A stretch of 64,000 nt of DNA from Dongia sedimenti (GTDB taxonomy: Bacteria > Pseudomonadota > Alphaproteobacteria > Dongiales > Dongiaceae). The position numbers and the translations under genes are program-made. Every line of letters starts with the position of its first letter. Positions within the stretch are counted from its first letter, which is position 1. The stretch is from positions 186,001 to 250,000 of the forward strand of contig JAUYVI010000006.1 in NCBI GenBank assembly GCA_030715195.1, in the 5' to 3' direction. This document shows positions 34,429 through 57,409 of this stretch, in pieces. The notes beneath the pieces are model-generated. The model did not search any database and was not told the DNA's origin. It saw only the letters and a list, made by a program, of their open reading frames with translations.

Positions 34429-34462
34429 TCCGAAATACCGGAATAGAAACCGAAATACTGGA
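34429..34462. promoter_or_regulatory. Candidate IclR operator pair (20 bp between centres)
   Basis: Two imperfect palindromes, TCCGAAATACCGGA (34429-34442) and ACCGAAATACTGGA (34449-34462), upstream of the SDR/enolase-superfamily unit. They match the elements beside iclR, at 44.0 kb and at 56.6 kb. The 20-bp centre spacing equals that of the pair upstream of iclR. Confidence 0.55.
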
Positions 34463-34516
34463 CGACGCGCCGGATTGCGGATAAGACGAGTCTCCTCAAG
34501 GTTTGGGGAGGCTGGC

Positions 34517-35266
34517 TTGCTGAATTATTTCGACGACCCCGCCTACACGGTCGCGGTGATCGGGGCGGGACGCGGCATCGGTCGCGCCGCGGCGCTGGAA
34601 ATGGCGCGACAGGGTGTCGCCGTCGCCTGTCTGGACAGCGACGGGGCCACGGCGGAGGATACCGCCAAGACCATCGCCGCTGCCGGAGGCCGGGCCAGCG
34701 CCGCCGCGGTGGACGTCGTCGATGGAAAGTCGATCGCCGCCGCCCTCAAGAAAACCGATCGGATCGACGCGCTGGTGAACTGCGCCGGCATCACCGGCAA
34801 AACCAACGTGCCCGGCCATCAGGTCGAGCTGGCGGATTTCGACCGGGTCTATCAGGTGAACCTGCGCGGCGCGCTGCTGGTGTCCCAGGCCGTGCTGCCG
34901 CATATGATCGAGCGCAAATACGGGCGGCTGCTGCATGTCGCCTCGATCGCCGGCAAGGAGGGCAATGCCGGGATGACCGCCTATTCCGCCACCAAGGCCG
35001 GCCTGATCGGCATGGTGAAGAGCCTCGCCAAGGACTACGTGGAGCAGGGGATCACCATCAACGCGCTGGCGCCGGCCGTCATCCGCACCGCGATGGTCGA
35101 TGCGCTGCCGCAGGCGACGGTCGATTACATGACCGCGAAAATCCCGATGAAGCGCTGCGGCGAGTTGGACGAGGCAGCGAAGCTGATCGCCTGGATCGTC
35201 TCGCCGGCCTGCAGCTTCACCACCGGCTTCACCTTCGATCTCTCGGGCGGGCGCGCGACGTACTAG
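34517..35266 (+). CDS. SDR-family oxidoreductase
   Basis: A 249-residue short-chain dehydrogenase: GAGRGIG coenzyme motif, NCAGITG, VASIAG with the catalytic Ser, YSATK catalytic pair, and the C-terminal DLSGGRATY. The TTG at 34517 is preceded by GGGGAGG at 6 bp, better than the TTG at 34475. The enolase-superfamily gene follows 12 bp later, so this unit resembles sugar (fucose/arabinose/rhamnose-type) dehydrogenase plus aldonate dehydratase pairs in oxidative sugar pathways. The substrate is not determinable. Confidence 0.88.
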   Translation: MLNYFDDPAYTVAVIGAGRGIGRAAALEMARQGVAVACLDSDGATAEDTAKTIAAAGGRASAAAVDVVDGKSIAAALKKTDRIDALVNCAGITGKTNVPGHQVELADFDRVYQVNLRGALLVSQAVLPHMIERKYGRLLHVASIAGKEGNAGMTAYSATKAGLIGMVKSLAKDYVEQGITINALAPAVIRTAMVDALPQATVDYMTAKIPMKRCGELDEAAKLIAWIVSPACSFTTGFTFDLSGGRATY

Positions 35267-35278
35267 CAGGGGGCAGTC

Positions 35279-36445
35279 ATGGGGAAGATCGCATCCATCG
35301 AAGTCATTCCATTGGCGGCGCCGGACGCGGTCGCCGATGACCTCGACGGCACCACGGACACGGTCATCGTCAGGCTGACCGGCGATGACGGCCAGACCGG
35401 CATCGGCGAATGCGACGCGCCGCCCCATGTGGTGAAGGCCTTCCTGGAGATGCCGACCGCGCATCTCTGGAGCCGCAACGTGAATGAGATCCTGATCGGC
35501 GCCGATCCGATCGAGGCGGCCGGCCTCTGGCAGAAGCTCTATGACGGCACCTTCTGGCCGGGGCGGCGCGGCCTCGGCATCCACGCGATCTCGGCGATCG
35601 ACATCGCGCTCTACGATCTGGCCGGCAAGCAGCACGGCGTGCCCGCCTACAAGCTGATGGGCGGCGCCCGGCGCGACCGCATCCGGCCCTATTGCACCAT
35701 CTTCCCCGGCATGCCGCATGGCCGCGGCATCGAGGTCCTGATGAAGGAGATCGGCCGGCAATTCGATTGCGCGGTCGATCTCGGCTTCCGCGCCGTCAAG
35801 ATGGAAGTGCTGTTCGACGACCTGGTGACCGACCGCGAGCTGGTCGAGCTGATCCGGCGCGGGCGGAAGATGCTGGGCGACGGCATCCAGATGGCCGTCG
35901 ACTTCGGCTATCGCTGGCACAATTGGCATGACGCCTTCTGGGTGCTGGATCGCATCAAGGATTGCGACATCCTGTTCGCCGAAGCCACGTTGCAGCATGA
36001 CGATCTCGACGGGCATGCGGAGCTGGCGGCGCGGAGCGGAATTCGGATCGGCGGTGCCGAGGCGGCGGCGACGCGCTTCGAGATCCGCGAGTGGCTCACC
36101 CGCGGCAAGGTCGGCGTGGTGCAGCCGAACATCGGCCGGGGCGGCGGCCTGACCGAGATCCGCCGCATCGCCGATCTCTGCGAGCTGATGGGCGCCGAGG
36201 TCGTGCCGCATGGCTGGAAGACCGGGATCACCTCGGCGGCGGGGCGACATTTCCACGCCGCCTGCGCGCCGTCGCCGGTCTTCGAATACGTCTCGCCGAA
36301 GGTCTTCGACTCCCTGCTGCGCCGCGAGCTGGTCTCGCCCGAGCCGGAAGTGAAGGACGGGTTCATGGCCTTGCCCGATCAACCGGGGCTCGGGATTGAG
36401 CTGAATGAGGACCTGGTCGCGAAGTTGCGAACCACGAGCCGCTAG
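35279..36445 (+). CDS. Enolase-superfamily (mandelate racemase-like) protein with Asn in place of the dyad Asp
   Basis: A 388-residue protein with an N-terminal capping domain and a C-terminal (beta/alpha)7-beta barrel. Metal ligands are visible as AVDFGYRW (Asp), FAEATL (Glu) and GGAEA (Glu). The catalytic His is His311 in VPHGWKTG. The dyad partner at the usual 27 residues before it (QPD in the other three paralogues here) is Asn284 in VVQPNIG. The second strand carries KME rather than KxK. Relatives dehydrate or epimerise acid sugars. The Asn may change the chemistry or reduce activity. CAGGGGGCAG precedes the ATG. The 3' end of this gene is echoed in a decayed copy at 39930-40077. Confidence 0.88.
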   Translation: MGKIASIEVIPLAAPDAVADDLDGTTDTVIVRLTGDDGQTGIGECDAPPHVVKAFLEMPTAHLWSRNVNEILIGADPIEAAGLWQKLYDGTFWPGRRGLGIHAISAIDIALYDLAGKQHGVPAYKLMGGARRDRIRPYCTIFPGMPHGRGIEVLMKEIGRQFDCAVDLGFRAVKMEVLFDDLVTDRELVELIRRGRKMLGDGIQMAVDFGYRWHNWHDAFWVLDRIKDCDILFAEATLQHDDLDGHAELAARSGIRIGGAEAAATRFEIREWLTRGKVGVVQPNIGRGGGLTEIRRIADLCELMGAEVVPHGWKTGITSAAGRHFHAACAPSPVFEYVSPKVFDSLLRRELVSPEPEVKDGFMALPDQPGLGIELNEDLVAKLRTTSR

Positions 36446-36472
36446 ACCCCGGAGTTGCGATAGCAATCCGTC

Positions 36473-37285
36473 TCAGCGCACCCGGCTTTTCTTCTTCTTC
36501 TTCTTCGTCTCCAGCAACCGGAGCGCAATACCGTCGAGCACACAATCCAATCCGTGATCGAACACGGCGTCGGCGGGCGGATGCGAGGCGTCGCGAACCA
36601 CCTTGGCGAGGGTGGGAAAACGGCCGGTGGCGATCACGCGCTGCATGTAGTGCCAGTTGGCTGATTGCCATGCCGCCTTGTCCATGCCGCTTTCGCGCTC
36701 GGCGATAATCTCGCTGACCTCGCTCCGGACGACTCCGATGACATAGGCATTGATCGTCTTGGCGGCCTGCACCGCGGCGTCGATGCTTTCGAAGCCTGGA
36801 GCCGCATGCAGCGCGGCGAGCAGTCGCTCCATATGGGCAAGCGTATTCGGACCCAGGCGCGGGCGTCCCCCCAGCAGATCGACGAACCAGGGGTGTTGGT
36901 GCGCGATTCGGCGCGTCTCCCGCGCGAATACCCGCAGCGCGTCGCGCCAATCCCGAGTCGCCGCTTCGTCCGGAACCATCTCGGCGTAAACCGCATCCGC
37001 CATCAGATCGAGCAGTTCATCCTTGGTCGACATGAATCCATAGAGGCGCATCGGTCCGGCATCGAGCGCGGCGGCAACCTTGCGCAGCGACACGGCCGCG
37101 AGGTCTTCGGCATCGGCGATTGCGATTGCGGCGCGGACGATGCCGTCCCGGCTGAGCGGCACGGGTGCTGGACGAGGTGCCGGCTCCGCGCGTTCCCAGA
37201 CAGTCCTTATCTCCGGCTGGAGGTGCTCGGTCCGGAGATCCGGAGGCTGGAGGTCGTCGGCGCGGGATTTTGGCGGCTTGGTCAT
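36473..37285 (-). CDS. TetR-family repressor
   Basis: A 270-residue regulator with a polar N-terminal extension (about 45 residues), a TetR helix-turn-helix (SRDGIVRAAIAIADAE ... SLRKVAAALDAGPMRLYGFM) and a C-terminal ligand domain of the tetracycline-repressor-like class. The C-terminus ends in six consecutive Lys encoded by an AAG repeat. The start at 37285 is the first ATG of the helix-turn-helix frame downstream of the operator region. It is divergent from a flavin monooxygenase across a 64-bp gap containing a nested palindrome, the usual arrangement in which a substrate of the enzyme relieves repression. Confidence 0.88.
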   Translation of the reverse strand: MTKPPKSRADDLQPPDLRTEHLQPEIRTVWERAEPAPRPAPVPLSRDGIVRAAIAIADAEDLAAVSLRKVAAALDAGPMRLYGFMSTKDELLDLMADAVYAEMVPDEAATRDWRDALRVFARETRRIAHQHPWFVDLLGGRPRLGPNTLAHMERLLAALHAAPGFESIDAAVQAAKTINAYVIGVVRSEVSEIIAERESGMDKAAWQSANWHYMQRVIATGRFPTLAKVVRDASHPPADAVFDHGLDCVLDGIALRLLETKKKKKKSRVR

Positions 37286-37316
37286 CCATCCATCCTGCAC
37301 AGAGCAGGGTGATTGA

Positions 37317-37365
37317 CAATACAATCGAAGTGTCGATACACTGTATCGTATGAGACAATGTATTG
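37317..37365. promoter_or_regulatory. Nested palindromic operator for the TetR regulator
   Basis: The inner palindrome CGATACA-C-TGTATCG (37334-37348) and outer arms CAATACA (37317-37323) and TGTATTG (37359-37365) share one centre at 37341. The inner part touches the monooxygenase ATG at 37350 and the right outer arm lies inside its coding region. This geometry would block transcription of both divergent genes when bound. Confidence 0.75.
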
Positions 37366-38969
37366 ATGACGACCACGTGCTCTCTCGCGGGGATAACGCA
37401 ACCTCGGTTCTCGTCGTCGGAGGCGGCTTGGCCGGCCTGTCCGCGGCGATGTTCCTGGCGTGGCAGGGTGTGCCGACCGTGCTGGTCGAGCGCCGCATGG
37501 AAAGCTCGCCGCATCCCCGTGCGATCGGTTTCACGCCGAGGACGATGGAGCTGTTCCGTGCCGTCGGGCTCGGCACGCGGATCCCGCAGGTGCCGGCCGG
37601 CTTCCGCCTGCGGCGGGCACGGGTCGAGAGCCTCGCCGGAGAGTGGTTCGAGGAAGCACCATCCTGGAATCCGGCGGAGGCCGAGAGTCCGAAACCGGAA
37701 TGCTCGCCTTGCACCGGTGGCGCCCTCGCACAGGATCGGCTTGAACCGATCCTGCAGGAAAGGGCGATGGCGTGCGGCGCCGACATCCGTCGTGGCACCG
37801 AGCTCGTCAGCTTCATCCAGGACGAAACGGGTGTAACCGCCTGTCTGCGTGCGCAGGACGGTCGCGAATATACGCTGCACGCCGCCTACATGATTGCGGC
37901 CGATGGACACCGCAGTCCGATCCGCGAGTCCTTGAGGATCGCCCGGAAGGGACGCGGCCACTTGCGGACCATGCGGAGCGTGCTGTTCCGGGCTCCGCTG
38001 GACGCCTATCTCGAAAAAGGCGTCATGCAATTCGAGATCGACCAGCCCGACCTGAAGGCGTTTCTCACCACCTATGCCGACGGACGCTGGGTGCTGATGT
38101 TTTCCGACGATGTGGTGCGTGACGAAGCGATGCTCCGAACCCTGATCGCCCAGGCGATCGGCCGATCGGATCTCGACATCGAGATCATCACCGCCGGGCG
38201 GTGGGAGCTGAGTGCGCTCATCGCCGACCGTTTCGCATCCGGCAGGATCTTTCTCGCCGGCGACGCCGCACACACCCTGCCGCCCTCTCGTGGCGGCTAT
38301 GGCGCGAATACCGGCATCCAGGATACCCATAATCTCGCCTGGAAGCTGGCAGCGGTGCTCTCCGGCCAGTCAGCATCGCGGCTGCTCGACAGCTACGACG
38401 CCGAACGGCGCCCGACTGCCTGGCTGCGGCACGACCAGATCTTCGCCCGCCCCGATTACAAGGCGCAGGCCGGACCAACCGCGGCAGAGACTCCGATTAT
38501 CGACGACGACGCCATGGAGTTCGGTCAGCTCTATCGGTCGAATGCGGTGATCGGCGCCGATGCAACGCTCCCGCCTGCGCTCAGGCCGGAGGCCTGGGCC
38601 GGCCAGCCCGGCACACGCGCACCGCATCTCTGGGTGACCATCGCCGGAAAGCCGGTCTCGACCCTCGATCTGCTCCGGTCGCGCTGGACGCTGCTCGCCG
38701 CGGACGACCGGTGGCGGGCCGCAGCGAGCGCCGCGGGGGAAGCGCTCGGCATCGCCGTCGCGTGTGTCCAGCTCGGCGTCGAACCGCTCCCGGGCGATGC
38801 GGTCGCTGTCCTTGTCGCCTTCGGCCTGGGGCGCACGGGCGCCGCCCTGATCCGGCCCGACGGCGTCATCGCCTGGCGCTCCACCGATTCGGAAGCTCAC
38901 CCATCCGAAGCGCTGATTCGAGCACTCGGCATCGTATCGGCCGCGACCCGAAGCAAGGCCGCGGCCTGA
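37350..38969 (+). CDS. FAD-dependent aromatic/polyketide-type monooxygenase
   Basis: A 539-residue class A flavoprotein hydroxylase. It has the N-terminal Rossmann motif VVGGGLAGLSAAMFLAWQG, the R-x-G-F segment after it (HPRAIGFTPRTMELFR), the central DG motif (AADGHRSPIR), the second FAD motif GRIFLAGDAAHTLPPSRGGYGANTGIQD and a C-terminal thioredoxin-like extension. The length fits phenol- or polyketide-hydroxylases (RdmE/PgaE/MhpA-like) rather than salicylate hydroxylases. Under TetR control it may inactivate or detoxify an aromatic compound, possibly an antibiotic; this is inference. Confidence 0.9.
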   Translation: MRQCIDDDHVLSRGDNATSVLVVGGGLAGLSAAMFLAWQGVPTVLVERRMESSPHPRAIGFTPRTMELFRAVGLGTRIPQVPAGFRLRRARVESLAGEWFEEAPSWNPAEAESPKPECSPCTGGALAQDRLEPILQERAMACGADIRRGTELVSFIQDETGVTACLRAQDGREYTLHAAYMIAADGHRSPIRESLRIARKGRGHLRTMRSVLFRAPLDAYLEKGVMQFEIDQPDLKAFLTTYADGRWVLMFSDDVVRDEAMLRTLIAQAIGRSDLDIEIITAGRWELSALIADRFASGRIFLAGDAAHTLPPSRGGYGANTGIQDTHNLAWKLAAVLSGQSASRLLDSYDAERRPTAWLRHDQIFARPDYKAQAGPTAAETPIIDDDAMEFGQLYRSNAVIGADATLPPALRPEAWAGQPGTRAPHLWVTIAGKPVSTLDLLRSRWTLLAADDRWRAAASAAGEALGIAVACVQLGVEPLPGDAVAVLVAFGLGRTGAALIRPDGVIAWRSTDSEAHPSEALIRALGIVSAATRSKAAA

Positions 38970-39034
38970 CTGCGCATCACCGGCTGCACCGCGACGCAGC
39001 ACATCGCCACTGCAAACATCACCTTGGAGGATCT

Positions 39035-39907
39035 ATGACCGAGCGCCGGGCGACGACAGTAATCTTGGCCCAGATTCTATGCATATCGGCCGGCTTCGCC
39101 GTCTTGTGCGCCGTGAGCGATCCGGCGGCGGCGCAGGAGGCCGTACCCAAGGCCGGTGCCGAGGCTGTTCCCCAGGACAATCCGGAGGCGGGCGCATTTG
39201 GCGGATATCTCCTGCTGGGTGCCGCTGCGCTGCCGGACTACGAGGGTTCGGAGGATTACACGGTCGGACCTCTCATCGCGGGCAAGCTCAGCTACCAAAG
39301 CTATTATCTCGAGGTCATGGGCACCCAAGCGAGACTGAACGTGTCGCCCTTCCGCGGCTTCGAGTTCGGTCCATCGGTCGGATACGTGCCGGGGCGCGGC
39401 AATGTCGAGAACAACCGTGTCGATGCCATGCGCAACATCGACGGCACAGTCAACGGCGGCGCCTTCTTCACGGTATATACCGATCGGCTGCTGACAGAGA
39501 GCGACCAACTGGCCTTTAAAGTCGAAGCCCTGACCGACCTCGGCGATGTCAACAATGGAACGACCGTTTCGTTCGGCCCGTCCTATCGATTTTCGCCGAT
39601 GGAGCGGCTCAGCCTGGGTGTCGAAGTCTCGGCCACCTATGCCAGTGCAAACTACACGGATACCTATTTCGGCGTCGATGCCCGAGACGCCGGACGCAGC
39701 GGTCTCTCGCGTTACAAGGCGAATGGCGGCATCAAAGATGTCGGTGTCATGCTCAACGTTGCGTACCAGTTCACCGACCACTGGGGCATCAGCGGTTTCG
39801 CCGGCTATACGCGGCTGGTTGGGGATGCCGCGGATAGCCCGATCGTCGCGCGCGAAGGCAGCGCCGGGCAGGGCATCGTCGGGACCGGCGTCATCTTCAG
39901 CTACTGA
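39035..39907 (+). CDS. MipA/OmpV-family outer-membrane protein
   Basis: A 290-residue exported beta-barrel protein: signal peptide with cleavage after DPAAA, then YLLLGAAALPDYEGSEDY, the opening of MipA/OmpV proteins, alternating beta-strand sequence and a terminal aromatic residue (GVIFSY) for Bam insertion. TTGGAGGA lies 3 bp before the ATG at 39035, 65 bp after the monooxygenase stop, so the two are probably one transcript. MipA proteins scaffold murein enzymes or act as outer-membrane channels; here it may admit the monooxygenase substrate. Confidence 0.88.
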   Translation: MTERRATTVILAQILCISAGFAVLCAVSDPAAAQEAVPKAGAEAVPQDNPEAGAFGGYLLLGAAALPDYEGSEDYTVGPLIAGKLSYQSYYLEVMGTQARLNVSPFRGFEFGPSVGYVPGRGNVENNRVDAMRNIDGTVNGGAFFTVYTDRLLTESDQLAFKVEALTDLGDVNNGTTVSFGPSYRFSPMERLSLGVEVSATYASANYTDTYFGVDARDAGRSGLSRYKANGGIKDVGVMLNVAYQFTDHWGISGFAGYTRLVGDAADSPIVAREGSAGQGIVGTGVIFSY

Positions 39908-39929
39908 TATGTGCCGCAAGGCGGGAAGA

Positions 39930-40077
39930 CGGATCACCTCGGCGGCGGGAACTCGTGTCGCCGGAGCGCGGTGAAGGACGGGTTCATGGCATTGCCCGAT
40001 TAACCGGCGCTCGATATCGCGCTCAACGAAGTCCCGGTCAAACGCCTCCGCACCGACCGGCAATGTCGTCGCCTGAA
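39930..40077 (+). pseudogene. Decayed 3' fragment of an enolase-superfamily gene
   Basis: Two blocks match the end of the intact gene at 35279-36445. The first, GGATCACCTCGGCGGCGGG (39930 on), corresponds to 36226 on. The second, GTGAAGGACGGGTTCATGGC (39971 on), corresponds to 36350 on. About 85 bp between them is missing, CAA has become TAA, and the tail still reads PALDIALNEVPVKRLRT in frame, paralogous to PGLGIELNEDLVAKLRT. It is a truncated remnant of a second, related gene, immediately after the TetR/monooxygenase/MipA cassette. Confidence 0.85.
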
Positions 40078-40134
40078 TTCTAGCCTCGGTTGAAATATTT
40101 GACCGGTGGAGCTGGCCAGCCCTATCCTTTACGG

Positions 40135-40323
40135 ATGAGGTCCCCGCTCATCCTGCTCGCGCTCGGAATCGTCTTTATGGTTGCTTTGGCCTGGGCGTGT
40201 CTCGACCAGGCACTGCGCTGCATACAGTCCGAACGTGATACGGGACTTTGTTTAATAACCCGCCCTGGTGTCGCTCTCCCGATGACGGGAAATCTTGATT
40301 TTCTGCCCCTTTTGATGGTATAA
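40135..40323 (+). CDS. Possible small membrane-anchored protein (62 aa)
   Basis: An ATG frame with one hydrophobic N-terminal segment (SPLILLALGIVFMVALAWA) followed by a short polar part. There is no convincing ribosome site or recognisable family. It lies in the 916-bp stretch between the MipA gene and the next enolase-superfamily gene, which also holds the pseudogene fragment, an inverted repeat and the 75-bp repeats. Confidence 0.25.
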   Translation: MRSPLILLALGIVFMVALAWACLDQALRCIQSERDTGLCLITRPGVALPMTGNLDFLPLLMV

Positions 40324-40330
40324 GATTTCC
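40288..40330. repeat. 9-bp inverted repeat GGAAATCTT / AAGATTTCC
   Basis: Perfect arms at 40288-40296 and 40322-40330 with 25 bp between them. It overlaps the end of the weak small frame. Function unknown. Confidence 0.45.
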
Positions 40331-40429
40331 ATGGATGCGGTGGACGCATTCGCCTCTCGGAGCCAACTTCATTGGCCGATCCGCGAGAGATGGCCGGTCA
40401 AGTCCGGCGATGAAATTCACCGTTCAACG

Positions 40430-40504
40430 TTGACCGGGCGTTTACAGAACGAGAAAGCCGTTTGCCCATCGGCTGTGATGAATGGGTTCATCGTCAAAGG
40501 CTTG
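40430..40504. repeat. 75-bp intergenic repeat, copy A
   Basis: Contains TTTACAGAACGAGAAAGCCG and ends GGTTCATCGTCAAAGGCTTG. Within it are two small stems: AGCCG...CGGCT and GATGAA-TGGG-TTCATC. It is followed after 9 bp by copy B. Confidence 0.75.
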
Positions 40505-40506
40505 GC

Positions 40507-40637
40507 GATTACCTTTACCCAGCCTTTACAGAACGAGAAAACCGTTTCAGCCGTTTCGATACGATGAATGGCTTTGTCGTCAAAGGCTTGTCGAGCCTTT
40601 CGCCCTTCAAAAAATGGGGGAGGGCGTAAAGGTAATC
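40507..40637. repeat. 131-bp MITE-like unit with 12-bp terminal inverted repeats
   Basis: GATTACCTTTAC (40507-40518) and GTAAAGGTAATC (40626-40637) are exact reverse complements and bracket repeat copy B. No coding capacity is convincing inside. This could be a miniature mobile element or a structured RNA stem. Confidence 0.5.
40514..40590. repeat. 75-bp intergenic repeat, copy B (77 bp)
   Basis: Begins TTTACCCAGCCTTTACAGAA and ends TTTGTCGTCAAAGGCTTG. It aligns along its length with copies A and C and with the distant copy at 55.5 kb. Confidence 0.75.
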
Positions 40638-40698
40638 TGCCGCTCTCCTCGTCCGCGTGGGAGATGTTGCCGGCGCCGAGGTTCGTATACGTCAACCC

Positions 40699-40773
40699 CG
40701 ACCGGACCCATACGGAACGAGGAATCGCTTCACCCATCCGAGTGTGAGAAATGGGTTCATCGTCAGAGGTTTG
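40699..40773. repeat. 75-bp intergenic repeat, copy C
   Basis: A more diverged copy (ACGGAACGAGGAATCGC ... AATGGGTTCATCGTCAGAGG). It shares the CCCATC and GGGTTCATCGTC blocks with copy A. Confidence 0.65.
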
Positions 40774-40823
40774 CCGGACGTTGCGCACTTCAAATCGCCG
40801 GGTGGCCGTCTGGGTAAGTCAGG

Positions 40824-41954
40824 TCACCCGACACGATACTTGTCGATCGTTTGCTGGTTCAGGCTGACGCCGAGGCCCGGCGTCGTCGGCACCGCGATGC
40901 GTCCGTCCGGCCCGAGGTCGAAGCGCTCGTTGGTCAGTTCCCAGCGCAACGGCGACTCGCTGGTCGAATATTCCGCCGGCTCGTCGTCCCAGTGCTGCGA
41001 CAGGAAGGCGAGGTTCGCCGCAATCGTGATGTTGGACTTATAGCCATGGGTGACCACGCGCTTGCCGCGCGTCTTGGCCGAGGCCGCGATCCGCATCAGC
41101 TCGGTCAAGCCGCCGGCCATGGTCACGTCCGGCTGGGCGATGTCGATCCTGCCGACATCGAAGGCGGCCTCGTATTCGTAATGGGTGGTGAGGCCGAGAT
41201 CGCCGCCGCCGATCGGGACACCCTGGCCGGCGAAGCGCGCATGGCCGGCGAGATCGTCGATCGGCAGCGGCGCCTCCAGCCAGAGGAAGCCGTTGTCGCG
41301 GAAGATCGGCACCAGCGGCAGGCCCTGCTCGGCCTCGGTCCAGGCCGTGGCGGCGTCGCACATCAGTTTGATGTCCGGACCGACATGCTCGCGCGCGGTG
41401 CGGATCAGGCGTTCGGTCTTGTTCAGGTCATGACGCCAATGCGGGTCGGCCACGATCTTGATCGCCTTCAAGCCGCGCTTCAGCCCGCGGTCGATGTTGA
41501 AGCGGACCTCCTCGGGCGTCTCGCCCAAGGGATAGACCGTGCCATAGGCCAGCAGACGGTCGCGTTTCTTGATGCCGAGCAGTTCGGAGACCGGCTTGCC
41601 CTCGACCTTGCCCTTGAGGTCCCAGAGCGCGATGTCGATGGCGCTGATCGCATGGATGACCACGCCGCGCCGGCCGTAATAGGAGGTCAGGTCGTACATC
41701 CGGTCCCACAGCGCGGAGATATTGAGAGGATCCTGACCGACCACCGCATCCTTCAAGCCATAGGCATGGGAATGAGAGCGGGGTGCGTCGATGATGGCGC
41801 GGATGACCGAAGGAACGCTGTCCACCTCGGCGATGCCGGTGATGCCTTGGTCGGTGTGGACGAGCACCAAGCAATTGTCGTATGACCCGTCGAACGTCTC
41901 CCCGGTCCACCCGGGGTAGCGCAGCTCGATCACCTCGACATCGGTTATTTTCAT
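40824..41954 (-). CDS. Enolase-superfamily (mandelate racemase-like) protein
   Basis: A 376-residue protein. The capping domain has the conserved SAIDIALWDLKGK; the barrel shows ligand-type residues in LMCDAATAW (Asp), LWLEAPLP (Glu) and GGGDLG, where Asp replaces the usual third Glu. The catalytic dyad is present: Asp in AQPDVT and His 27 residues later in THGYKSNI. The second strand reads KIVAD rather than KxK. It is likely a dehydratase or epimerase for an acid sugar. It is divergent from iclR, with an operator pair in the gap; the first operator lies 36 bp upstream of its ATG. Confidence 0.88.
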   Translation of the reverse strand: MKITDVEVIELRYPGWTGETFDGSYDNCLVLVHTDQGITGIAEVDSVPSVIRAIIDAPRSHSHAYGLKDAVVGQDPLNISALWDRMYDLTSYYGRRGVVIHAISAIDIALWDLKGKVEGKPVSELLGIKKRDRLLAYGTVYPLGETPEEVRFNIDRGLKRGLKAIKIVADPHWRHDLNKTERLIRTAREHVGPDIKLMCDAATAWTEAEQGLPLVPIFRDNGFLWLEAPLPIDDLAGHARFAGQGVPIGGGDLGLTTHYEYEAAFDVGRIDIAQPDVTMAGGLTELMRIAASAKTRGKRVVTHGYKSNITIAANLAFLSQHWDDEPAEYSTSESPLRWELTNERFDLGPDGRIAVPTTPGLGVSLNQQTIDKYRVG

Positions 41955-41989
41955 TGCCCCACCACGCTTTGGCGGCCATTGCCGGGCCG

Positions 41990-42023
41990 TCCGGAATATT
42001 GGATACTAATCCAGAATGCTGGA
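41990..42023. promoter_or_regulatory. Candidate IclR operator pair beside iclR (20 bp between centres)
   Basis: TCCGGAATATTGGA (41990-42003) and TCCAGAATGCTGGA (42010-42023) lie between the divergent enolase-superfamily gene and iclR; the second is 9 bp before the iclR ATG. IclR proteins commonly bind paired palindromes and repress themselves. Confidence 0.65.
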
Positions 42024-42032
42024 ATTGACGGA

Positions 42033-43996: not shown

Positions 43997-44040
43997 CCGT
44001 CTCTCTCGCCCCTCTCTCGTTGACTCCTGATTCGGGCTAC

Positions 44041-44082
44041 CCTAGCATTCTGGAAATACGTACAACAGTCCGGTATTCTGGA
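44041..44082. promoter_or_regulatory. Candidate IclR operator pair (28 bp between centres)
   Basis: CCTAGCATTCTGGA (44041-44054; its reverse complement TCCAGAATGCTAGG nearly equals the iclR-proximal site) and TCCGGTATTCTGGA (44069-44082). They lie between the divergent signal-less binding protein and the ABC transporter operon. Confidence 0.6.
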
Positions 44083-44139
44083 ATCGTGGAGAACGCGATC
44101 CGGCCAACGGACGCGGGGCAGGCAACAGGGAGAGGCACG

Positions 44140-45669: not shown

Positions 45670-45681
45670 GCTGAAGCCAAC

Positions 45682-45725: not shown

Positions 45726-45752
45726 GGGTGCAGGCCGAGACCGAGGTTGCCC

Positions 45753-46703: not shown

Positions 46704-46704
46704 G

Positions 46705-49640: not shown

Positions 49641-50799
49641 TTTCTTCTACATCTCCATGCCGGTCGTCACCGATGCCGGCGACGGCAGCCAGGATGCGCT
49701 GCTGGTGCGGGTCCGCTCGGGGAATATCGAGGCCTGGGGCGAGTGCGAGGCCTCGCCGCTGACCTCCATCGCGTCATCCATCGCGCCGATGTCGCATGGC
49801 GCCTGCCGCCCGGTCTCGGCGCAGGTGCTGGGCGAGGATGTTTCCTCGCCGAAGGACATCGCGCGGCTGGCGGCCACCATCCAGTGGAACTGCATGGATC
49901 TCCTCCAGGCGGCGCACACCTGGTCGGGGATCGAGATCGCGCTCTGGGACCTGCTCGGCAAGAAGGAGAGCGTGCCGGTCTACAAGCTGCTCGGCTACGA
50001 CAAGGCCTATCCGAAGGTGCCTTATGCCTCGCAGCTGTTCGGCGACACGGCGCAGGAGACTCTGACGCTCTGCAAGGCGGCGCGCGATGCCGGCTATCGC
50101 GCGGTCAAATGCGGCTGGGGGCCGTTCGGCCGCGGCACATTGAAAGACGATGCCGACCATCTGCAGGCGGCGCGCGAGGGAATCGGCAAGGACGGCACCC
50201 TGCTGATCGATGCCGGGCAGATCTTCGGCGAGGACGTCGATGCGGCGGCGGCGCGGCTGCCGGCTTTGGAAGGCGTCAATGCCACCTGGTTCGAGGAGCC
50301 GTTCAACGGCAGTGCCTATGAGGCCTATGGCGCGCTGGCGAAGCGGTCCCGGACGGTGCGGTTGGCGGGCGGGGAGGCGGCGCACAACACCTTCATGGCG
50401 CGGCACACCATCGATTACGGCGGCGTCGGCTTCATCCAGATCGATTGCGGCCGGATCGGCGGCATCGGTCCGGCCAAGCAGGTCGCGGATTACGCGGTCG
50501 GCAAGGGCATCACCTATGTGAACCACACCTTCACCACCCATCTCGCGCTCTGTGCCTCGATCCAGCCTTTCGCGGGGTTGAAGGATCACAAGATCTGCGA
50601 ATACCCGGTGCGGCCGCAGCCGATGGCCTGGGAGATGTGCAAGACCCACATCGCCCCCAATGCGCAGGGCGAAATCGTGGTGCCGGAGGCGCCGGGCCTT
50701 GGCATCGAGATCGATCTCGCGGCGGTGAAGAAGTACCTGATCGACGCCGAGATCAAGGTCGGCGGCAAGGTGCTGTACAAGACACCGAGCCTCGCCTAG
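49621..50799 (+). CDS. Enolase-superfamily (mandelate racemase-like) protein
   Basis: A 392-residue protein; the start lies inside the last codons of the ATPase gene and is preceded by AAGGACGAG, so it belongs to the transporter operon. Barrel ligands: LLIDAGQIFG (Asp), TWFEEPF (Glu), LAGGEAAHN (Glu). Dyad: Asp in IQIDCGRIGG and His 27 residues later in VNHTFTTHLA. The second strand has KCGWG, without a second Lys. This combination differs from the other three paralogues, so it probably acts on a different substrate or step, most likely on whatever the transporter imports. Confidence 0.9.
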   Translation: MKIESIDFFYISMPVVTDAGDGSQDALLVRVRSGNIEAWGECEASPLTSIASSIAPMSHGACRPVSAQVLGEDVSSPKDIARLAATIQWNCMDLLQAAHTWSGIEIALWDLLGKKESVPVYKLLGYDKAYPKVPYASQLFGDTAQETLTLCKAARDAGYRAVKCGWGPFGRGTLKDDADHLQAAREGIGKDGTLLIDAGQIFGEDVDAAAARLPALEGVNATWFEEPFNGSAYEAYGALAKRSRTVRLAGGEAAHNTFMARHTIDYGGVGFIQIDCGRIGGIGPAKQVADYAVGKGITYVNHTFTTHLALCASIQPFAGLKDHKICEYPVRPQPMAWEMCKTHIAPNAQGEIVVPEAPGLGIEIDLAAVKKYLIDAEIKVGGKVLYKTPSLA

Positions 50800-51528
50800 C
50801 TAGCGGACGTTCCGTCCCTTGCGCCGCTGCAGGCGGAGGATGTGCTGGTCGAGCTCCTCGTCCAGCGCCTCCGCCTTGCCGGCGGCGAGGATGTCCCGCA
50901 GACGTCGGTGCTGCCCCACGATCGCCTTGGCGTCGCGCTCGCTGCGGATCTCCTTGCCGAACACGATGAGCACATGGCGGGCGAGGGCGTCCCACAGCTT
51001 CTGCACGATCGCATTGCCGGAAGCGCGGCAGATCTCGCGGTGAAAATCGAGATCGGCCTTGCTGATCTCGATCCACTCCATGTGCGCCGCGGCGCGTTCC
51101 ATGGCCGTGAGGATCTTATCCAGCCTCAGGAGCAGCGCCGGCTCGCGGCGATAGGCTTCCATGGCGCCGCGCATCGCGATCTTCTCCAGGGCGAGGCGCG
51201 CCTCGCAGATCTCATCGATCCGCGCCTCGTCGAACGTGGCGAGGCGGGTGCCGCGATGCGGCGCGCTCTCGACGATGCCCTGCGCTTCCAGGATCTTCAG
51301 CGCCTCGCGCAGCGGCACCCGGCTCATCTGCAGGAGCCGCGCCAGCTCGACCTCGAGCAGCCGCTGGCCCGGCTGCAGGGCGCCCGAGGCGACGCCGAGC
51401 ACAATCGCTTCGGCCGCGCGTTCGGCAAGGCCCGGATTGGGCGCCAGCGTCAGCCCTTCGGCCGCGGTCATCGGGCTGATCGGTTCGGGGGTCAGGATCT
51501 CGCTGGCGGTCAGGCGGCGGCGCGGCAT
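50800..51528 (-). CDS. GntR-family (FCD domain) transcriptional regulator
   Basis: A 242-residue regulator with a winged helix-turn-helix (LLEVELARLLQMSRVPLREALKILEAQGIVE) and a C-terminal all-helical FCD ligand domain (metal-binding type: DLDFHREICRASGN, HRRLRDIL). The ATG at 51528 is the first that leaves room for the N-terminal arm; a longer frame reaches 51666 but crosses the operator region. It is divergent from the SDR-SDR-enolase-SDR operon and probably represses it. FCD regulators typically respond to sugar acids or small carboxylates. Confidence 0.9.
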   Translation of the reverse strand: MPRRRLTASEILTPEPISPMTAAEGLTLAPNPGLAERAAEAIVLGVASGALQPGQRLLEVELARLLQMSRVPLREALKILEAQGIVESAPHRGTRLATFDEARIDEICEARLALEKIAMRGAMEAYRREPALLLRLDKILTAMERAAAHMEWIEISKADLDFHREICRASGNAIVQKLWDALARHVLIVFGKEIRSERDAKAIVGQHRRLRDILAAGKAEALDEELDQHILRLQRRKGRNVR

Positions 51529-51550
51529 GATTCGATCATCTCTGTAAGAT

Positions 51551-51574
51551 TGTATACATTTATTATGTCGACAT
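51551..51574. promoter_or_regulatory. Candidate GntR operator: TGTATACA and ATGTCGACAT
   Basis: Two palindromes of the form TGTnnACA, TGTATACA (51551-51558) and ATGTCGACAT (51565-51574), with centres 15 bp apart in the gap between gntR and the divergent SDR operon. The pattern fits FadR-type GntR boxes (GT...AC). CATTCT at 51572 resembles half of the IclR element. Confidence 0.55.
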
Positions 51575-51646
51575 TCTAGCGCGGTACTGCCAAGCTTCCC
51601 AGAACAAAGCGGCGGAAATCGGCCGCGGAAGACAACAGGGACCGGT

Positions 51647-52408
51647 GTGGCGAGACTAGAGGGCAAGCGGGCGCTGATCTATGGCGGCGGGACCGGCATC
51701 GGCTTCGCCTGCGCCGAGGCGATGATTCGCGAGGGCGCCGCGGTCTTTCTATCCGGACGCCGGGAAGGCGTGCTCAACGAAGCGCATGCCAGGCTGCAAA
51801 CACTCGGCAAGGTCGGCTTTGCCGCGGGCGACGCGACCATGGAAGAGGACGTGCAGCGGGTGACCGCAATTGCGGCCGATTTCATGGACGGGCTCGACAC
51901 GATCGTGGTCAGCGCGGGGGCCGCGGGCAAGACCCCGATCTTCGACACCCCGGTCGCGGAGTTCAAGCGCATCGCCGACCATTCCCTGCTGCCGCCCTTC
52001 CTCGCCATGCGCTTCGGGGCCGAGCATCTCCTGAAGGCGGGCCAGGGTTCGGTGATCGTGATCTCCTCGATGTTCGGCCTGACCGGGCAGAAGGAGCGGG
52101 TCGGCTATTGCTCGGGCAAGTGGGGCGTGATCGGCCTCGTCAAGGCGGCGGCGATGGATTTCGCCGAGCGCGGCGTGCGGGTCAATGCGATCTGCCCCGG
52201 CTTCATCGAGACGCCGCTCTCGATCGAGACCGCGAAGCTGGAACCGAACTGGGAAGAAATCATCGCGTTCAAGCGCCGCATGCATCCGATCCCGCGCCCG
52301 GGCAAGCTCGAGGAGGTGGGCGAGCTCGCGGTCTATCTCGCCTGCGATCTCGCCGCCTTCATGACCGGCCAGGCGATCGCGATCGATGGCGGCTTCACCA
52401 CGCGCTGA
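51647..52408 (+). CDS. SDR-family oxidoreductase
   Basis: A 253-residue short-chain dehydrogenase starting with GTG (CAGGGA upstream): GGGTGIG coenzyme motif, SAGAAG in place of the usual NNAG, ISSMFG with the catalytic Ser, then YCSGKWG, which keeps the catalytic Tyr and Lys, and the C-terminal AIDGGFTTR. It is first in the GntR-controlled operon with a second SDR, an enolase-superfamily enzyme and a third SDR. Confidence 0.9.
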   Translation: MARLEGKRALIYGGGTGIGFACAEAMIREGAAVFLSGRREGVLNEAHARLQTLGKVGFAAGDATMEEDVQRVTAIAADFMDGLDTIVVSAGAAGKTPIFDTPVAEFKRIADHSLLPPFLAMRFGAEHLLKAGQGSVIVISSMFGLTGQKERVGYCSGKWGVIGLVKAAAMDFAERGVRVNAICPGFIETPLSIETAKLEPNWEEIIAFKRRMHPIPRPGKLEEVGELAVYLACDLAAFMTGQAIAIDGGFTTR

Positions 52409-52424
52409 TCAGGGGGATGGTGCC

Positions 52425-53201
52425 ATGACGGGATTGATTTCCGGCAAGCGGGCCTATGTGACCGGGGGATCGAGCGGTATCGGCGCGGCGATCGTGAAGA
52501 CCTTTGCCGAGGAGGGCGCGCGGGTCGCGATCGGTGCCTCCGCGCATGCGCGCGAGGCGGAAGCCCTGGCGAGATCGCTGCCCGCGAATGGCGGGCATCT
52601 GGTGGTGAAGGCCGATCTCACCGACCGCCGGCAGATCGCGAAGGCGGCCGAGGATGTGGTCGCCGGCTTGGGCGGGCTCGACATTTTCGTGCATTCGGCC
52701 GGAATCGACGTCACCCAGACGGCGGTGACGCACGAGACCTCGGAAGCGCTCTGGGACAAGATGCTGGACCTGCATCTGAACGCGGCGTTCTTCCTCTCCA
52801 AGGCGCTGATCCCGGCCATGCTGAAGGGCAACAAGCCCGCCATGGTGTTCATCGGCTCGGTCTGCGGATTGGTCGCCTGGGAGGGCGATGTCGCCTACAA
52901 CGTCGCCAAGGCCGGGCTGCAGCATCTCGCGCGCTGCATCGCCTCGGACTATGCGAAGCAGGGGCTGCGCGCCAATGTGATCGCGCCGGGCGTCATCGAT
53001 ACGCCGCTCACCCGCAACTACGCCTCCGGCATGCCCGGCGGCGAGGCCGAAGGCCTGAAGACCCTGGCGGCGATGCATCCGCTCGGCCGCATCGCGGTGC
53101 CGACGGAGATCGCGAGCGCCGCCGCCTTTCTTGCCTCCGACAAGGCCTCCTTCATCACCGGAACCGTGCTGCCGATCGACGGCGGCCTCGTGAACGTTTG
53201 A
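52425..53201 (+). CDS. SDR-family oxidoreductase
   Basis: A 258-residue short-chain dehydrogenase: TGGSSGIG, HSAGID, IGSVCG, YNVAK and IDGGLVNV are the standard SDR landmarks. The ATG at 52425 follows AGGGGGATGG and lies 16 bp after the previous SDR stop. Having two SDRs side by side ahead of an enolase-superfamily enzyme suggests oxidation of a sugar and of a later intermediate, or two epimers. Confidence 0.9.
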   Translation: MTGLISGKRAYVTGGSSGIGAAIVKTFAEEGARVAIGASAHAREAEALARSLPANGGHLVVKADLTDRRQIAKAAEDVVAGLGGLDIFVHSAGIDVTQTAVTHETSEALWDKMLDLHLNAAFFLSKALIPAMLKGNKPAMVFIGSVCGLVAWEGDVAYNVAKAGLQHLARCIASDYAKQGLRANVIAPGVIDTPLTRNYASGMPGGEAEGLKTLAAMHPLGRIAVPTEIASAAAFLASDKASFITGTVLPIDGGLVNV

Positions 53202-53223
53202 CCGTCAACGTCTGAACACAGGA

Positions 53224-54450
53224 ATGCATATGCCGTTTCAAACCGTATCGCCCAAGCTCGAAGGCGAAGCACCCAAGCTCAAGATCACCGATGTCGAATG
53301 CCATGTGCTGCTGGCGCCGGATTACGATGCCAGCTTCACCTCCTCGGCGCAGGACAGCTTCATCGTCGTCATCCACACCGATGGCGGGGTCAGCGGGGTC
53401 GGCGAATGCGACGCCAATCCCTGGATGGCCAAGGCCTGCATCGAGGCGCCGGGCACCCACACGATGGGCCTCTGCATCAAGGAGATGCTGATCGGCCAGG
53501 ATCCGTTCCAGATCGGCGATCTCTGGAAGAAGATGTATCTCGGCACGGCGATGAACGGCCGCCGCGGCATGGTGATCCATGCGATGAGCGCGGTCGACAT
53601 GGCGCTGTGGGACCTCTGCGGCAAGGCCGTGGGCAAGCCGGTGCATGCGCTGCTGGGCGGCGCCACCCGGGAGTTCATCACGCCCTACGCCTCGCTGCAG
53701 CCGGCCGGGCATCGCTTCGAGGAATACCGCGACGCCCTCTGCGCCTCGGCGGAAAAGGCGAAGGCGCTGGGCTTCAAGGCGATGAAGACCGAGATCACCA
53801 TGAACGGCCCCTATGCCCATGGCGGCATGCGCGAGAGCTACGCGCGGCACACCGAGGTGCTGAAAGCCGTGCGCAAGACCATCGGCAACGAGATCACGCT
53901 GATGGTCGATGTGCAGTACCTCTGGGAGGATGCCGAGACCTGCCTGAAGACGGTGCAGGATTGGGGCGAGTACGACATCTATTTCCTGGAGACGCCGCTC
54001 TGGTCCGACAATGTCCATGAGATGGCCAAGCTGGTCGCCAAGGCGCCGATGAAGATCGCCTTCGGCGAATGGCTGGCGACGCGATTCGAGTTCGAGGAGC
54101 TCATGGACATCGGCAAGGTCCAGGTGGCGCAGCCCGATGTCGGCCGGGTCGGCGGCATCGGCGAGGCGACCATCGTCTGCGACATGGCGAAGGCGCGCGG
54201 CCGGACCATCGTGCCGCATTGCTGGAAGACCGGCATCTCGATCTCCGGCACGGCGCACATGGCCTTCGTCACCAACCATTGTGCCTTCATCGAATACCTG
54301 CCGCCGCAGCTCTGCCACGAGCGGCTGCGCCGCGAGCTGGCGCATGAGGAACTGGTGCTGCGTCCCGACGGCACGATCCCGCTGCCGACCAAGCCCGGTC
54401 TCGGCGTCGAGGTCGATTGGGACGTGGTGAAGAAGTATCGCGTCGCCTGA
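53224..54450 (+). CDS. Enolase-superfamily (mandelate racemase-like) protein
   Basis: A 408-residue protein (an ATG at 53230 is also possible). The capping domain has SAVDMALWDLCGK; barrel ligands are LMVDVQYLW (Asp), YFLETPLW (Glu) and FGEWLATR (Glu). The dyad is Asp305 in AQPDVG and His332 in VPHCWKTGIS, spaced as in mandelate racemase. The second strand has KTE. VPHCWKTG resembles the VPHGWKTG of the 35279 gene, so the two are the closest pair in the window. It is the third gene of the GntR-flanked operon and probably an acid-sugar dehydratase. Confidence 0.9.
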   Translation: MHMPFQTVSPKLEGEAPKLKITDVECHVLLAPDYDASFTSSAQDSFIVVIHTDGGVSGVGECDANPWMAKACIEAPGTHTMGLCIKEMLIGQDPFQIGDLWKKMYLGTAMNGRRGMVIHAMSAVDMALWDLCGKAVGKPVHALLGGATREFITPYASLQPAGHRFEEYRDALCASAEKAKALGFKAMKTEITMNGPYAHGGMRESYARHTEVLKAVRKTIGNEITLMVDVQYLWEDAETCLKTVQDWGEYDIYFLETPLWSDNVHEMAKLVAKAPMKIAFGEWLATRFEFEELMDIGKVQVAQPDVGRVGGIGEATIVCDMAKARGRTIVPHCWKTGISISGTAHMAFVTNHCAFIEYLPPQLCHERLRRELAHEELVLRPDGTIPLPTKPGLGVEVDWDVVKKYRVA

Positions 54451-54464
54451 CGCAAGGAGGGAGC

Positions 54465-55259
54465 ATGACGGAGCGCCCCGCCAAGAGAATGGACGGCCGC
54501 GTCGCGGTGGTGACCGGCGGCGCCCAGGGCATCGGCTTCGGCATCGCCCGGCGCTTCGCCGAAGAGGGCGCCCATGTCGTGATCGCCGATATCAAGGAGG
54601 CGGTCGCCAAGGGTGCGGCGGCTAAGATCAACGCCGCCGGCGGCACCGCCTGCGGCGCCATGGTCGATATCGGCGACGATGCCAGCGTCGCCGTTCTGGC
54701 GGCGAAGATCGAGCAGAAACACGGGCGCTGCGAGATCCTGGTCAACAATGCGGCGATCTCCGACGGCACCGGGATCGAGACGCTGACCATGCAGCGCTAT
54801 CACCAAGTGACGCGTGTCAACCAGGACGGCGCCATCCGGATGAGCCTCGCCTTCGTGCCGCTCTTGAAGAAGGGCGGCGAGGGGCGGCGCATTCTCAATA
54901 TCGCTTCGATCCTGGGGGTGCGCGGCTGGCCCGACGCCATCCCCTATGCAACCGCCAAAGGCGCCATCGTCAATTTCACCCGAGCGCTCGCCTGCGATCT
55001 GGCGCCGCACGGGATCATGGTCAACGCTTTGGCGCCGGGCTTCGTCGATACGCCGATGTCGATCCAGCCGGATGGATCGCATGAATACGATTCCGACTGG
55101 TTCCGCGACATCTACGTGAAGTACGGACGGATCCCGCTCAGGCGCTACGGCAATCCCGACGACATGGCGGGCCCCGCCTTCTTCCTCTGCTCGGATGACG
55201 CGCGTTATGTCACCGGCCAGGTGCTGATGGTGGATGGCGGCGCCTCGGCGACGTTTTGA
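54465..55259 (+). CDS. SDR-family oxidoreductase
   Basis: A 264-residue short-chain dehydrogenase: TGGAQGIG, NNAAI, IASILG, YATAK and MVDGGASATF. AAGGAGGGAGC precedes the ATG at 54465, 14 bp after the enolase-superfamily stop. It is similar in pattern to the SDR at 56606 (both have NNAA and end VDGG..TF), suggesting related substrates. It is the last gene of the operon; the next 360 bp hold no gene. Confidence 0.9.
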   Translation: MTERPAKRMDGRVAVVTGGAQGIGFGIARRFAEEGAHVVIADIKEAVAKGAAAKINAAGGTACGAMVDIGDDASVAVLAAKIEQKHGRCEILVNNAAISDGTGIETLTMQRYHQVTRVNQDGAIRMSLAFVPLLKKGGEGRRILNIASILGVRGWPDAIPYATAKGAIVNFTRALACDLAPHGIMVNALAPGFVDTPMSIQPDGSHEYDSDWFRDIYVKYGRIPLRRYGNPDDMAGPAFFLCSDDARYVTGQVLMVDGGASATF

Positions 55260-55619
55260 CGTGCGAAGATGGAAAGTGACGGTCGTCGCCGTGCTGCGCA
55301 AATTCCTGAATTCACGCGGCGCTGCAGGGACGCGGGGCGCCGATTGTGATATGATTAGTGTGCTGTTTGACATCGTGAACTCCGTCTCGAAATTCGCGCC
55401 GTCGTGACAGTACCCGTGATTGCTGCGCTGCATCGCAGACCGGACGCAGACAGAATCGACACCGCGTCGTTCGATGCTCAACCGCGAAAAGGTTTACCCA
55501 GGGTTTACCAAACGCCGATTCAATCGGCCTCTCGATCGAGAGAAAGGCCATCATCGTCAACAGCTTGGTCCGGATTTGCGGCGCCGCGCAGAGCAACCTC
55601 CGCCACGGTATGTCCCGCT
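55260..55619. other. Gene-free convergent intergenic region
   Basis: 360 bp between the converging SDR and SMP-30 genes. I see no gene or clear terminator with a T run. It holds the distant copy of the 75-bp repeat at 55493-55567; the rest shows nothing I recognise. Confidence 0.6.
55493..55567. repeat. 75-bp intergenic repeat, copy D
   Basis: Begins TTTACCCAGGGTTTACCAAA, ends CATCGTCAACAGCTTG, and aligns end to end with copy B at 40514-40590. It contains two abutting perfect palindromes, GCCGATT-C-AATCGGC (55514-55528) and CTCTCGATCGAGAG (55529-55542). Confidence 0.7.
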
Positions 55620-56480
55620 TCAGGCGATCTTCGGATACCGCAGCCTCAATCCGGCGACCGGCATCGGTGCGGTGTGCACCGACCAGCCGCAGAGGCTGGC
55701 GATGATCAGGGTCTTCATGTCCGGGCCGCCGAAGGCGATGTTGGTGGGCGCCACCAGCATGAGCTGTTCCCAATCATCGTAGAGGGTGATGAGCTCGCCC
55801 TGCGCCGTGTAGCGATAGATGATGTTGGGATTGTAGAGCGAGATGTAGAGATCGCCCTTTTCGTCGAGGGCGACGCCGTCGGGGACGGTGCGCGGCAGCT
55901 CGACCACGACGCTGCGCTTGCCGGCGGAGCCGTCCGCCTTGATCTCGATCTTGGCGATCAGCGGCGGCGAGGATTCGACGACGTACAGCGCCTTGCCGTC
56001 GGCCGAGAGGCACATGCCGTTGCTGAAGCCGTTGGCGCTCTGGTCCCAGATCTCCGCCTTGGTCCCGCCGGGTGCCACCTTCCAGATCCAGCCGTTACGC
56101 TTGCCCCATTCGCCGGAATCCGAGACATAGAGATTGCCGGCGTCGTCGAAGACCGGATAGTTCGGCACCCGCATGCGCTGTTCGGCATTGCCGTTGCAGT
56201 AGACCGAGACCGTGCCTTGCGGCGTGATGCGGTGGACGCAGGTATTGCGGTCATCGCAGGCATAGGTATTCCCGTCCGCGTCGTGGGCGAGGCCCAGCAG
56301 GAACCCGCCCTCGACCTTGGCGACCTGCTCGCAGATCGAATCCGCGAGGCTCATGCGATAGAGTTGCCCGGCCTCGCCGCCGGCATAGACGCGGCTGTCG
56401 GGGCCCCAGGCGACCGCTTCCGGGTGATCCAGGGCGTGGCCGAGGTTGGTGAGTGTCAGAAGGTTCTGCTGCGCCGCCAC
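55620..56480 (-). CDS. SMP-30/gluconolactonase-like beta-propeller protein
   Basis: A 286-residue protein with the six-bladed propeller pattern of SMP-30/LRE enzymes: HPEAVAWGPD at the start, then PNYPVFDDAGNLYVSDSG, NGFSNGMCLSADGKALYVVES, VPDGVALDEKGDLYISLYNP and PTNIAFGGPDMKTLI, each supplying candidate metal ligands (Glu, Asn, Asp). Such enzymes hydrolyse sugar lactones to aldonates. The GTG at 56480 follows GGGAGATAGGA; the longer frame to 56612 would overlap the divergent SDR gene. It fits between an SDR (making a lactone) and a dehydratase (using the acid). Confidence 0.88.
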   Translation of the reverse strand: MAAQQNLLTLTNLGHALDHPEAVAWGPDSRVYAGGEAGQLYRMSLADSICEQVAKVEGGFLLGLAHDADGNTYACDDRNTCVHRITPQGTVSVYCNGNAEQRMRVPNYPVFDDAGNLYVSDSGEWGKRNGWIWKVAPGGTKAEIWDQSANGFSNGMCLSADGKALYVVESSPPLIAKIEIKADGSAGKRSVVVELPRTVPDGVALDEKGDLYISLYNPNIIYRYTAQGELITLYDDWEQLMLVAPTNIAFGGPDMKTLIIASLCGWSVHTAPMPVAGLRLRYPKIA

Positions 56481-56560
56481 GGTTCCTATCTCCCTGTTCC
56501 GTCTCGACTTGACCGTCGATTCCAGCGGCAGCATAGTATTGTCCATCATCTCAGAACAAG

Positions 56561-56576
56561 TTCCAGAATGCCGGAA
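56561..56576. promoter_or_regulatory. Candidate IclR operator, best palindrome (TTCCAGAATGCCGGAA)
   Basis: A single 16-bp near-perfect palindrome in the gap between the divergent SMP-30 and SDR/CUT1-transporter genes, 29 bp before the SDR ATG. It matches the iclR-proximal site TCCAGAATGCTGGA at all but one of 14 positions. Confidence 0.6.
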
Positions 56577-57382: not shown

Positions 57383-57409
57383 ACAATAACCAACAGGAAG
57401 GCTGAACCC

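Follow-up and report, generated by a model that had tools for sequence, protein, structure and literature searches.

Regulators of the IclR family are known to act from paired operators. According to Suvorova and Gelfand (2021; PMC8222616), who also made use of the TtgV-DNA complex, tandem sites with centres 18-22 nt apart occur in 94 orthologous groups of the family and are explained by tetramer binding, most site centres lying 20-80 nt before the start. They also describe a subgroup, NGT-12-ACN, with the motif NGTYCRAW4TYGRACN, in whose regulons sugar-acid COGs are frequent and COG1028 is overrepresented. Another close parallel is SL1344_3500 of Salmonella, which is also IclR-like and represses neighbouring sugar-acid operons (PMC12445098), though it differs in concerning xylonate. 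Here we analyse a 64-kb stretch of the Dongia sedimenti genome (the window, meaning the whole stretch of DNA that was analysed), in which a 14-bp near-palindromic element of the form TCCRRAATRYYGGA, with the consensus TCCRGAATRCYGGA, stands before four gene units and appears to tie them to a regulator encoded among them, a protein of the IclR family.

The element resembles the group-1 motifs of the family (PMC8222616) in its TYC...GRA-like half-sites, in an even-length palindrome as in NGT-12-ACN and in the tandem arrangement at 18-22 nt, so that paired sites in the iclR promoter, called typical of IclR binding in a preliminary description of this DNA, do correspond to a described family trait. 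Compared with NGT-12-ACN as given there, it differs in having R at position 5 and mostly C at position 10 (theirs being A and T) and in its flanks, which are mostly T and A. Among 46 sites of at least 16 bits (selected by the matrix of the window and including duplicates), the half-sites TCCR and YGGA agree with NGTYCRAW4TYGRACN and position 10 is C in 37, the outer G (14/46) and outer C (12/46) being in the minority. The IclR protein has an N-terminal HTH_IclR domain (PF09339, 44.5 bits, cut-off 22) and a C-terminal IclR_C domain (PF01614, 115.8 bits, cut-off 24). KdgR (NF011671) and BhcR (NF045644), its best named NCBIfam relatives, were rejected as identities, at 111.3 bits against a curated cut-off of 275 and 138.0 bits against one of 350, both far under. 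TtgV (solved chains 2xrn and 2xro) belongs to the IclR family by sequence (48 bits) but is distant, and its target, an efflux pump, is unlike the targets of this regulon. A literature search that covered few subscription journals found no description of this regulon; it is newly mapped here, and its kind, a local IclR regulon with tandem sites, is already well described.

At the level of comparative genomics the regulon is real, with corrections to its first outline: the proposed link between motif, local IclR and four units is borne out by their co-conservation, by a scan of the genome whose best 150 candidates yield matches in these regions only and by the four scanned genus-mates without the orthologue, which lack any match below E 1.2. 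The reading that we prefer, with a probability of about 0.88, is that the IclR protein represses the four units from tandem operators, where binding, tetramer, repression and inducer are what we infer from sequence. The features concerned are the following, where SDR stands for short-chain dehydrogenase, SBP for solute-binding protein, ENO for enolase-superfamily enzyme and E for the expectation value under the paired model described below.

34429-34462 (+): O1, tandem operator before the SDR/enolase pair; sites 34429-34442 and 34449-34462, 20 bp apart; E 0.31
34517-35266 (+): SDR1, short-chain dehydrogenase; TTG start after GGGGAGG
35279-36445 (+): ENO1, enolase-superfamily (MR_MLE) enzyme; nearest solved chain 3mqt
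40824-41954 (-): ENO2, enolase-superfamily enzyme, divergent from iclR; nearest solved chain 3sjn
41979-42007 (+): predicted iclR promoter; TTGCCG, 17 bp, GATACT (42002-42007), the -10 box at the spacer between both sites
41990-42023 (+): O2, tandem operator in the iclR/ENO2 intergenic region; sites 41990-42003 and 42010-42023, 20 bp apart; E 6.9e-6
42033-42857 (+): iclR, IclR-family regulator of 274 aa with HTH_IclR and IclR_C domains
42854-43996 (-): SBP_bac_8-like protein gene, convergent with iclR; no signal peptide visible by eye
44020-44048 (+): predicted SBP5 promoter; TTGACT, 17 bp, TAGCAT
44041-44082 (-): O3, operator of the SBP8-like/SBP5 divergon; strong conserved site 44069-44082 and weak site 44041-44054, 28 bp apart; E 4.5 and 8.2
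44140-45669 (+): SBP5, family-5 (Dpp/Opp-type) solute-binding protein
45747-49640 (+): importer genes for DppB-, DppC- and DppD/F-type permeases and ATPases (outer frame limits)
49621-50799 (+): ENO3, enolase-superfamily enzyme after the importer; nearest solved chain 2hzg
55620-56480 (-): SMP-30/gluconolactonase-like gene, divergent from SDR5; GTG start; regulon membership unproven
56509-56537 (+): predicted SDR5 promoter; TTGACC, 17 bp, CATAGT
56542-56575 (+): O4, tandem operator; weak site 56542-56555 and strong site 56562-56575, 20 bp apart; E 0.002
56606-60569 (+): CUT1 importer operon of SDR5, SBP1, MalF-type and MalG-type genes

Operator sites in the window

The seven copies first reported are all present, matching the consensus without mismatch at 42010, 44069 and 56562, with one mismatch at 34429 and 41990 and with two at 34449 and 44041. 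Some sites fall inside the mechanically called open reading frames (ORFs) of iclR (TTG 41979), SBP5 (TTG 44020) and the SMP-30 gene (ATG 56612). Judged from the ends of orthologues and from sequences that resemble ribosome sites, however, these genes begin at 42033, 44140 and 56480, respectively, and SDR1 at 34517. With the corrected starts, all seven copies are intergenic, as had been claimed, in a stretch (31.6-63.9 kb) whose intergenic share is about 10% by the gene list of the analysis. The spacing of 20 bp stands for 34429/34449 and 41990/42010, whereas the 28 bp of 44041/44069 is not conserved and 44041 is weak (11.7 bits with the relatives' matrix introduced below). Nor is 56562 the single site that it was taken for, since a weak partner of 8.8 bits lies 20 bp upstream, at 56542.

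In its loose form the motif is only mildly enriched, because places with up to three mismatches number 52 in the whole window against 29.5 +- 5.9 in shuffled sequence; further places with two mismatches are 15805, 29409, 32897 and 57269. A weight matrix made from 19 site sequences of relatives gives six of the seven window sites 18.8-23.5 bits, followed by 13.4 bits at 44077, which overlaps 44069, and 13.1 bits at 32897. Six sites reach at least 16 bits, compared with a mean of 0.22 and a maximum of 2 in 100 first-order Markov sequences of 64 kb, although this matrix is not fully independent of the window, because the window's own matrix was used to locate those relatives' sites.

Conservation with the IclR orthologue and specificity in the genome

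Orthologues of the IclR protein are found in eight other genomes, seven of them at 65-77% identity (61 genomes searched) and the eighth, G086, at 62% (385 class genomes searched, at most the best six candidates per genome being scored). Dongia deserti is among the carriers, and none of the six genus-mates has an orthologue at E<=1e-50. A plasmid origin was also considered and rejected, no IclR match at the same threshold being present in 72,556 plasmid records. The HTH block IPKSTAYEL, which we take to be the position of the recognition helix, is identical in 9/9 orthologues, and 123 of the 274 residues are identical overall, a low count in that four sequences lack the first 13-26 residues.

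The strong sites recur at the orthologous promoters. With the window matrix (own-genome values being training values, and promoters off the fetched DNA excluded), the best site reaches at least 14.4 bits before iclR in 8/9 genomes (7/8 others), at least 17.6 bits before SDR1 in 7/8 (6/7 others), at least 16.8 bits before SBP5 in 8/8 (7/7 others) and at least 18.4 bits before SDR5 in 7/7 (6/6 others). Except at the importer promoter, these sites usually have a second site exactly 20 bp away: a partner of at least 8.6 bits is present at 7/9 iclR, 7/8 SDR1 and 7/7 SDR5 promoters, and before iclR it reaches at least 10 bits in seven of the nine genomes (7.4 bits in G016, none in G086). Around 42 sites of at least 15 bits, window included, partners above 8 bits number 17 at -20, 9 at +20 and one each at +-28, in a count that takes both members of a pair and includes related, non-independent genomes; the +-28 partners are the window's own 44-kb pair. 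A second operator class with 28-bp spacing was rejected, because its far site, at 17.3 bits in the genome studied here, drops to 6.9 bits in three genomes of the Dongia type and to 5.5 bits or less in the other four.

A scan with single sites proved too loose as a test, since up to two mismatches give 212 forward and 203 reverse places in the genome, against 43 and 44 for the reversed pattern. Places with no or one mismatch number 38, five of them in the window; of the other 33, 24 were read, and 19 of these lie under a coding-like open frame, whereas no partner at +-20 or +-28 bp exceeds 2.3 bits for any of the 24. It is the partner, and not the frame, that discriminates, because the same frame test also covers four of the five window places, owing to over-long 5' ends. 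The only perfect site outside the window (C22:186303), inside a 686-aa frame and without partner, was judged a chance occurrence. Occurrence inside genes, which the preliminary description had named as counting against a regulon if it were equally frequent there, is seen for single sites, whereas the paired matches among the candidates scored below all fall in the four named regions. A fixed pattern of both sites with three mismatches allowed matches only 34429 and 41990, and a paired model, a 34-bp profile of two sites 20 bp apart, was built from 15 operators of relatives, themselves located with the window's matrix, the own genome being excluded.

In the own genome of 6.13 Mb this model gives six matches at E<=10, all in the four named intergenic regions, when the best 150 of 1137 first-look candidates are scored: those listed for O1 to O4 and one on the other strand of O2 (0.39). 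Only two of the six, in O2 and O4, are below E 0.01, and the strength of the scan is that no place elsewhere in the 6.13 Mb scores better among those best 150 candidates. Four genus-mates without the orthologue, also scanned over their best 150 candidates (G004 was left out), have no paired match below E 1.2. Among 189 other class genomes, scanned with stricter filters over the best 37 candidates each and not checked genome by genome for the orthologue, three have a paired match at E<=0.05, the best being 0.0098, and a value such as that of O4 is therefore not extreme taken alone. The operator is also kept where the units are apart. In G010 and G014, ENO3 and SDR5-CUT1 share a single contig with iclR at a distance of about 2.0 and 1.9 Mb, respectively, or more, even if circular, and the distant SDR5-CUT1 units carry tandem operators (L102:5691/5711 and L099:5745/5765, E 3.4e-4) that were not in the training set; on the sequence side, the same operator thus precedes separated units. 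G002, a fragmented genus-mate with the importer and ENO3 on a 7.3-kb contig, has no site of at least 12 bits on that contig, and its IclR relatives at E<=1e-10 do not exceed 24% identity; it decides nothing because no SDR5 was found on the contig.

Mode of regulation and rival readings

Promoter boxes were searched for without a background control. SDR5 promoters contain TTGAC(C/G), a spacer of 17-18 bp and CATAGT, TAGAGT or CAGAGT in 7/7 scanned, with the -10 box only a few bases ahead of the operator; SBP5 promoters contain TTGACT, 16-17 bp and TAGCAT or TAACCT in 3/5 scanned; and for iclR the best reading has its -10 box, GATACT or GATAGT, at the spacer of the tandem in 6/8. Three of the four operators thus contain the predicted -10 box or follow closely on it, which makes repression the most likely mode of action. 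On this reading, the protein that binds the element would be the IclR-family product of 42033-42857, and two 14-bp sites two helical turns apart would place two dimers on one face of the DNA, as a tetramer. By covering the -10 box or the start point, the protein would repress iclR and ENO2, SDR1-ENO1, the family-5 importer with the following enolase and the SBP-like gene, and SDR5-CUT1, until an intermediate of the pathway, probably a sugar-acid pathway, releases it.

Several observations weigh against this proposal. The iclR promoter of G016 has only degenerate sites, of 8.6 and 7.4 bits, SDR1 of G008 lacks an upstream site (3.5 bits), none of the eight SBP5 promoters has a partner of at least 8.6 bits at 20 bp, and no consistent boxes were found among six SDR1 promoters scanned. 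O1 and O3 are not outstanding on their E-values alone, and the paired model is not fully independent of the window. The genome also holds 16 HTH_IclR matches, the weaker ones possibly other HTH families, so that recognition of the site by a paralogue is conceivable. That another paralogue or regulator does read the operators, the neighbouring iclR being a bystander, seems nevertheless very improbable: a strong site precedes iclR in 8/9 orthologue-bearing genomes, and the four scanned genus-mates without the orthologue lack the paired operator below E 1.2 in spite of 7-14 HTH_IclR matches. G008 encodes a second IclR (L049:9679-10523, 49% identity) with a related 16.8-bit site before its own gene, which speaks for such a paralogue and is a possible duplication with retained specificity.

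The IclR family contains activators, and the same protein might act from these sites as an activator or a dual regulator, which would suit the SDR1 sites, 55-88 bp before the start codon, where the promoter is not fixable; we consider this unlikely, since the operators of SDR5, SBP5 and iclR reach into the predicted -10 box or come after it, a position from which a bound protein would obstruct the polymerase. That the sites are a chance or repeat-family pattern with no regulatory role is scarcely credible, even though isolated 14-mers are found at other places of the genome, most of them within coding-like frames, and paired matches in 3/189 class genomes: the excess of strong sites over the Markov expectation, the exact 20-bp pairing and the conservation at orthologous promoters in other genera all stand against it.

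Gene arrangement, pathway and significance

In three close relatives (L032, L034 and L035) the genes form a contiguous cluster in the order SDR1-ENO1, ENO2 divergent from iclR, the SBP-like gene divergent from SBP5-Dpp, an extra enolase, ENO3 and SDR5, so that the idea that the members are not otherwise linked has to be abandoned; in L051 the cluster runs on into the CUT1 genes. G008, G010, G014 and G086 have a looser order, with other genes or gaps between the units, and G016 has ENO3 instead of the SBP-like gene after iclR. In the window, a TetR/FAD-monooxygenase/MipA block (36473-40823) and a GntR/SDR2/SDR3/ENO4/SDR4 block (50800-55259) lie inside this cluster. Their exclusion from the regulon is upheld, as neither has a site of at least 12 bits and their genes are not between cluster units in L032, L034 and L035; the GntR block is a rearranged neighbour and not foreign, because its genes adjoin the cluster in L052 and partly in L034. 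A similar pair of sites (L032:1081/1101, L035:1052/1072) precedes an ABC ATPase-domain gene adjoining the cluster (30-33% to the window Dpp ATPases). Elsewhere in the window, a 2837-aa open frame (22262-30775, - strand) has a coding-like base composition.

The sites precede iclR/ENO2, SDR1/ENO1, the importer and SDR5-CUT1 as first described, the SMP-30 side of O4 being unproven, because no SMP-30 orthologue was found at E<=1e-40 in 16 other genomes searched and the one promoter that can be recognised near 56.5 kb is directed towards the SDR. G010 has further sites: a pair at L102:12381/12401 precedes a MalK-type ATPase gene, another at L100:11103/11123 (E 1.2) adjoins an SBP_bac_8 gene, and a strong site at L100:5423, which as a pair has E 0.25, is flanked by genes for an SMP-30 protein and an ABC ATPase. 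Because of these extra sites, the regulon may be wider in sister genera, with SMP-30 genes as possible members.

Three enolase-superfamily enzymes, the SDRs (presumably COG1028) and two importers suggest uptake and dehydration of sugar acids, and a 2-keto-3-deoxy acid is a plausible candidate inducer. Neither ENO1 nor ENO2 reaches the curated cut-off of any named dehydratase in NCBIfam, the nearest solved chains of ENO1-ENO3 carry generic names, and SDR5 scores 224.9, above the cut-off of 215, for a broad subfamily that bears the name glucose 1-dehydrogenase. The SBP_bac_8-like gene overlaps iclR by 4 bp, lies downstream of the shared O3 and has relatives of 58-73% identity in seven other genomes, in all of which it is no more than about 1.3 kb from iclR; G016 has none beside iclR. 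Its product has no NCBIfam match, and an AlphaFold model from four sequences is unusable (mean pLDDT 36.5). This protein might be a cytoplasmic ligand-binding partner that captures an imported substrate or intermediate and tunes the release of IclR, as a two-protein sensor, which we regard as very unlikely.

Dehydrogenase, enolase-superfamily and importer genes of a generic kind, spread over 22 kb, become one defined candidate regulon with a testable regulator, a regulon which holds within it two gene blocks without the operator and whose parts, in a sister genus, lie megabases apart yet keep the operator. The inducer of IclR would reveal the substrate class of the three enolase-superfamily enzymes.

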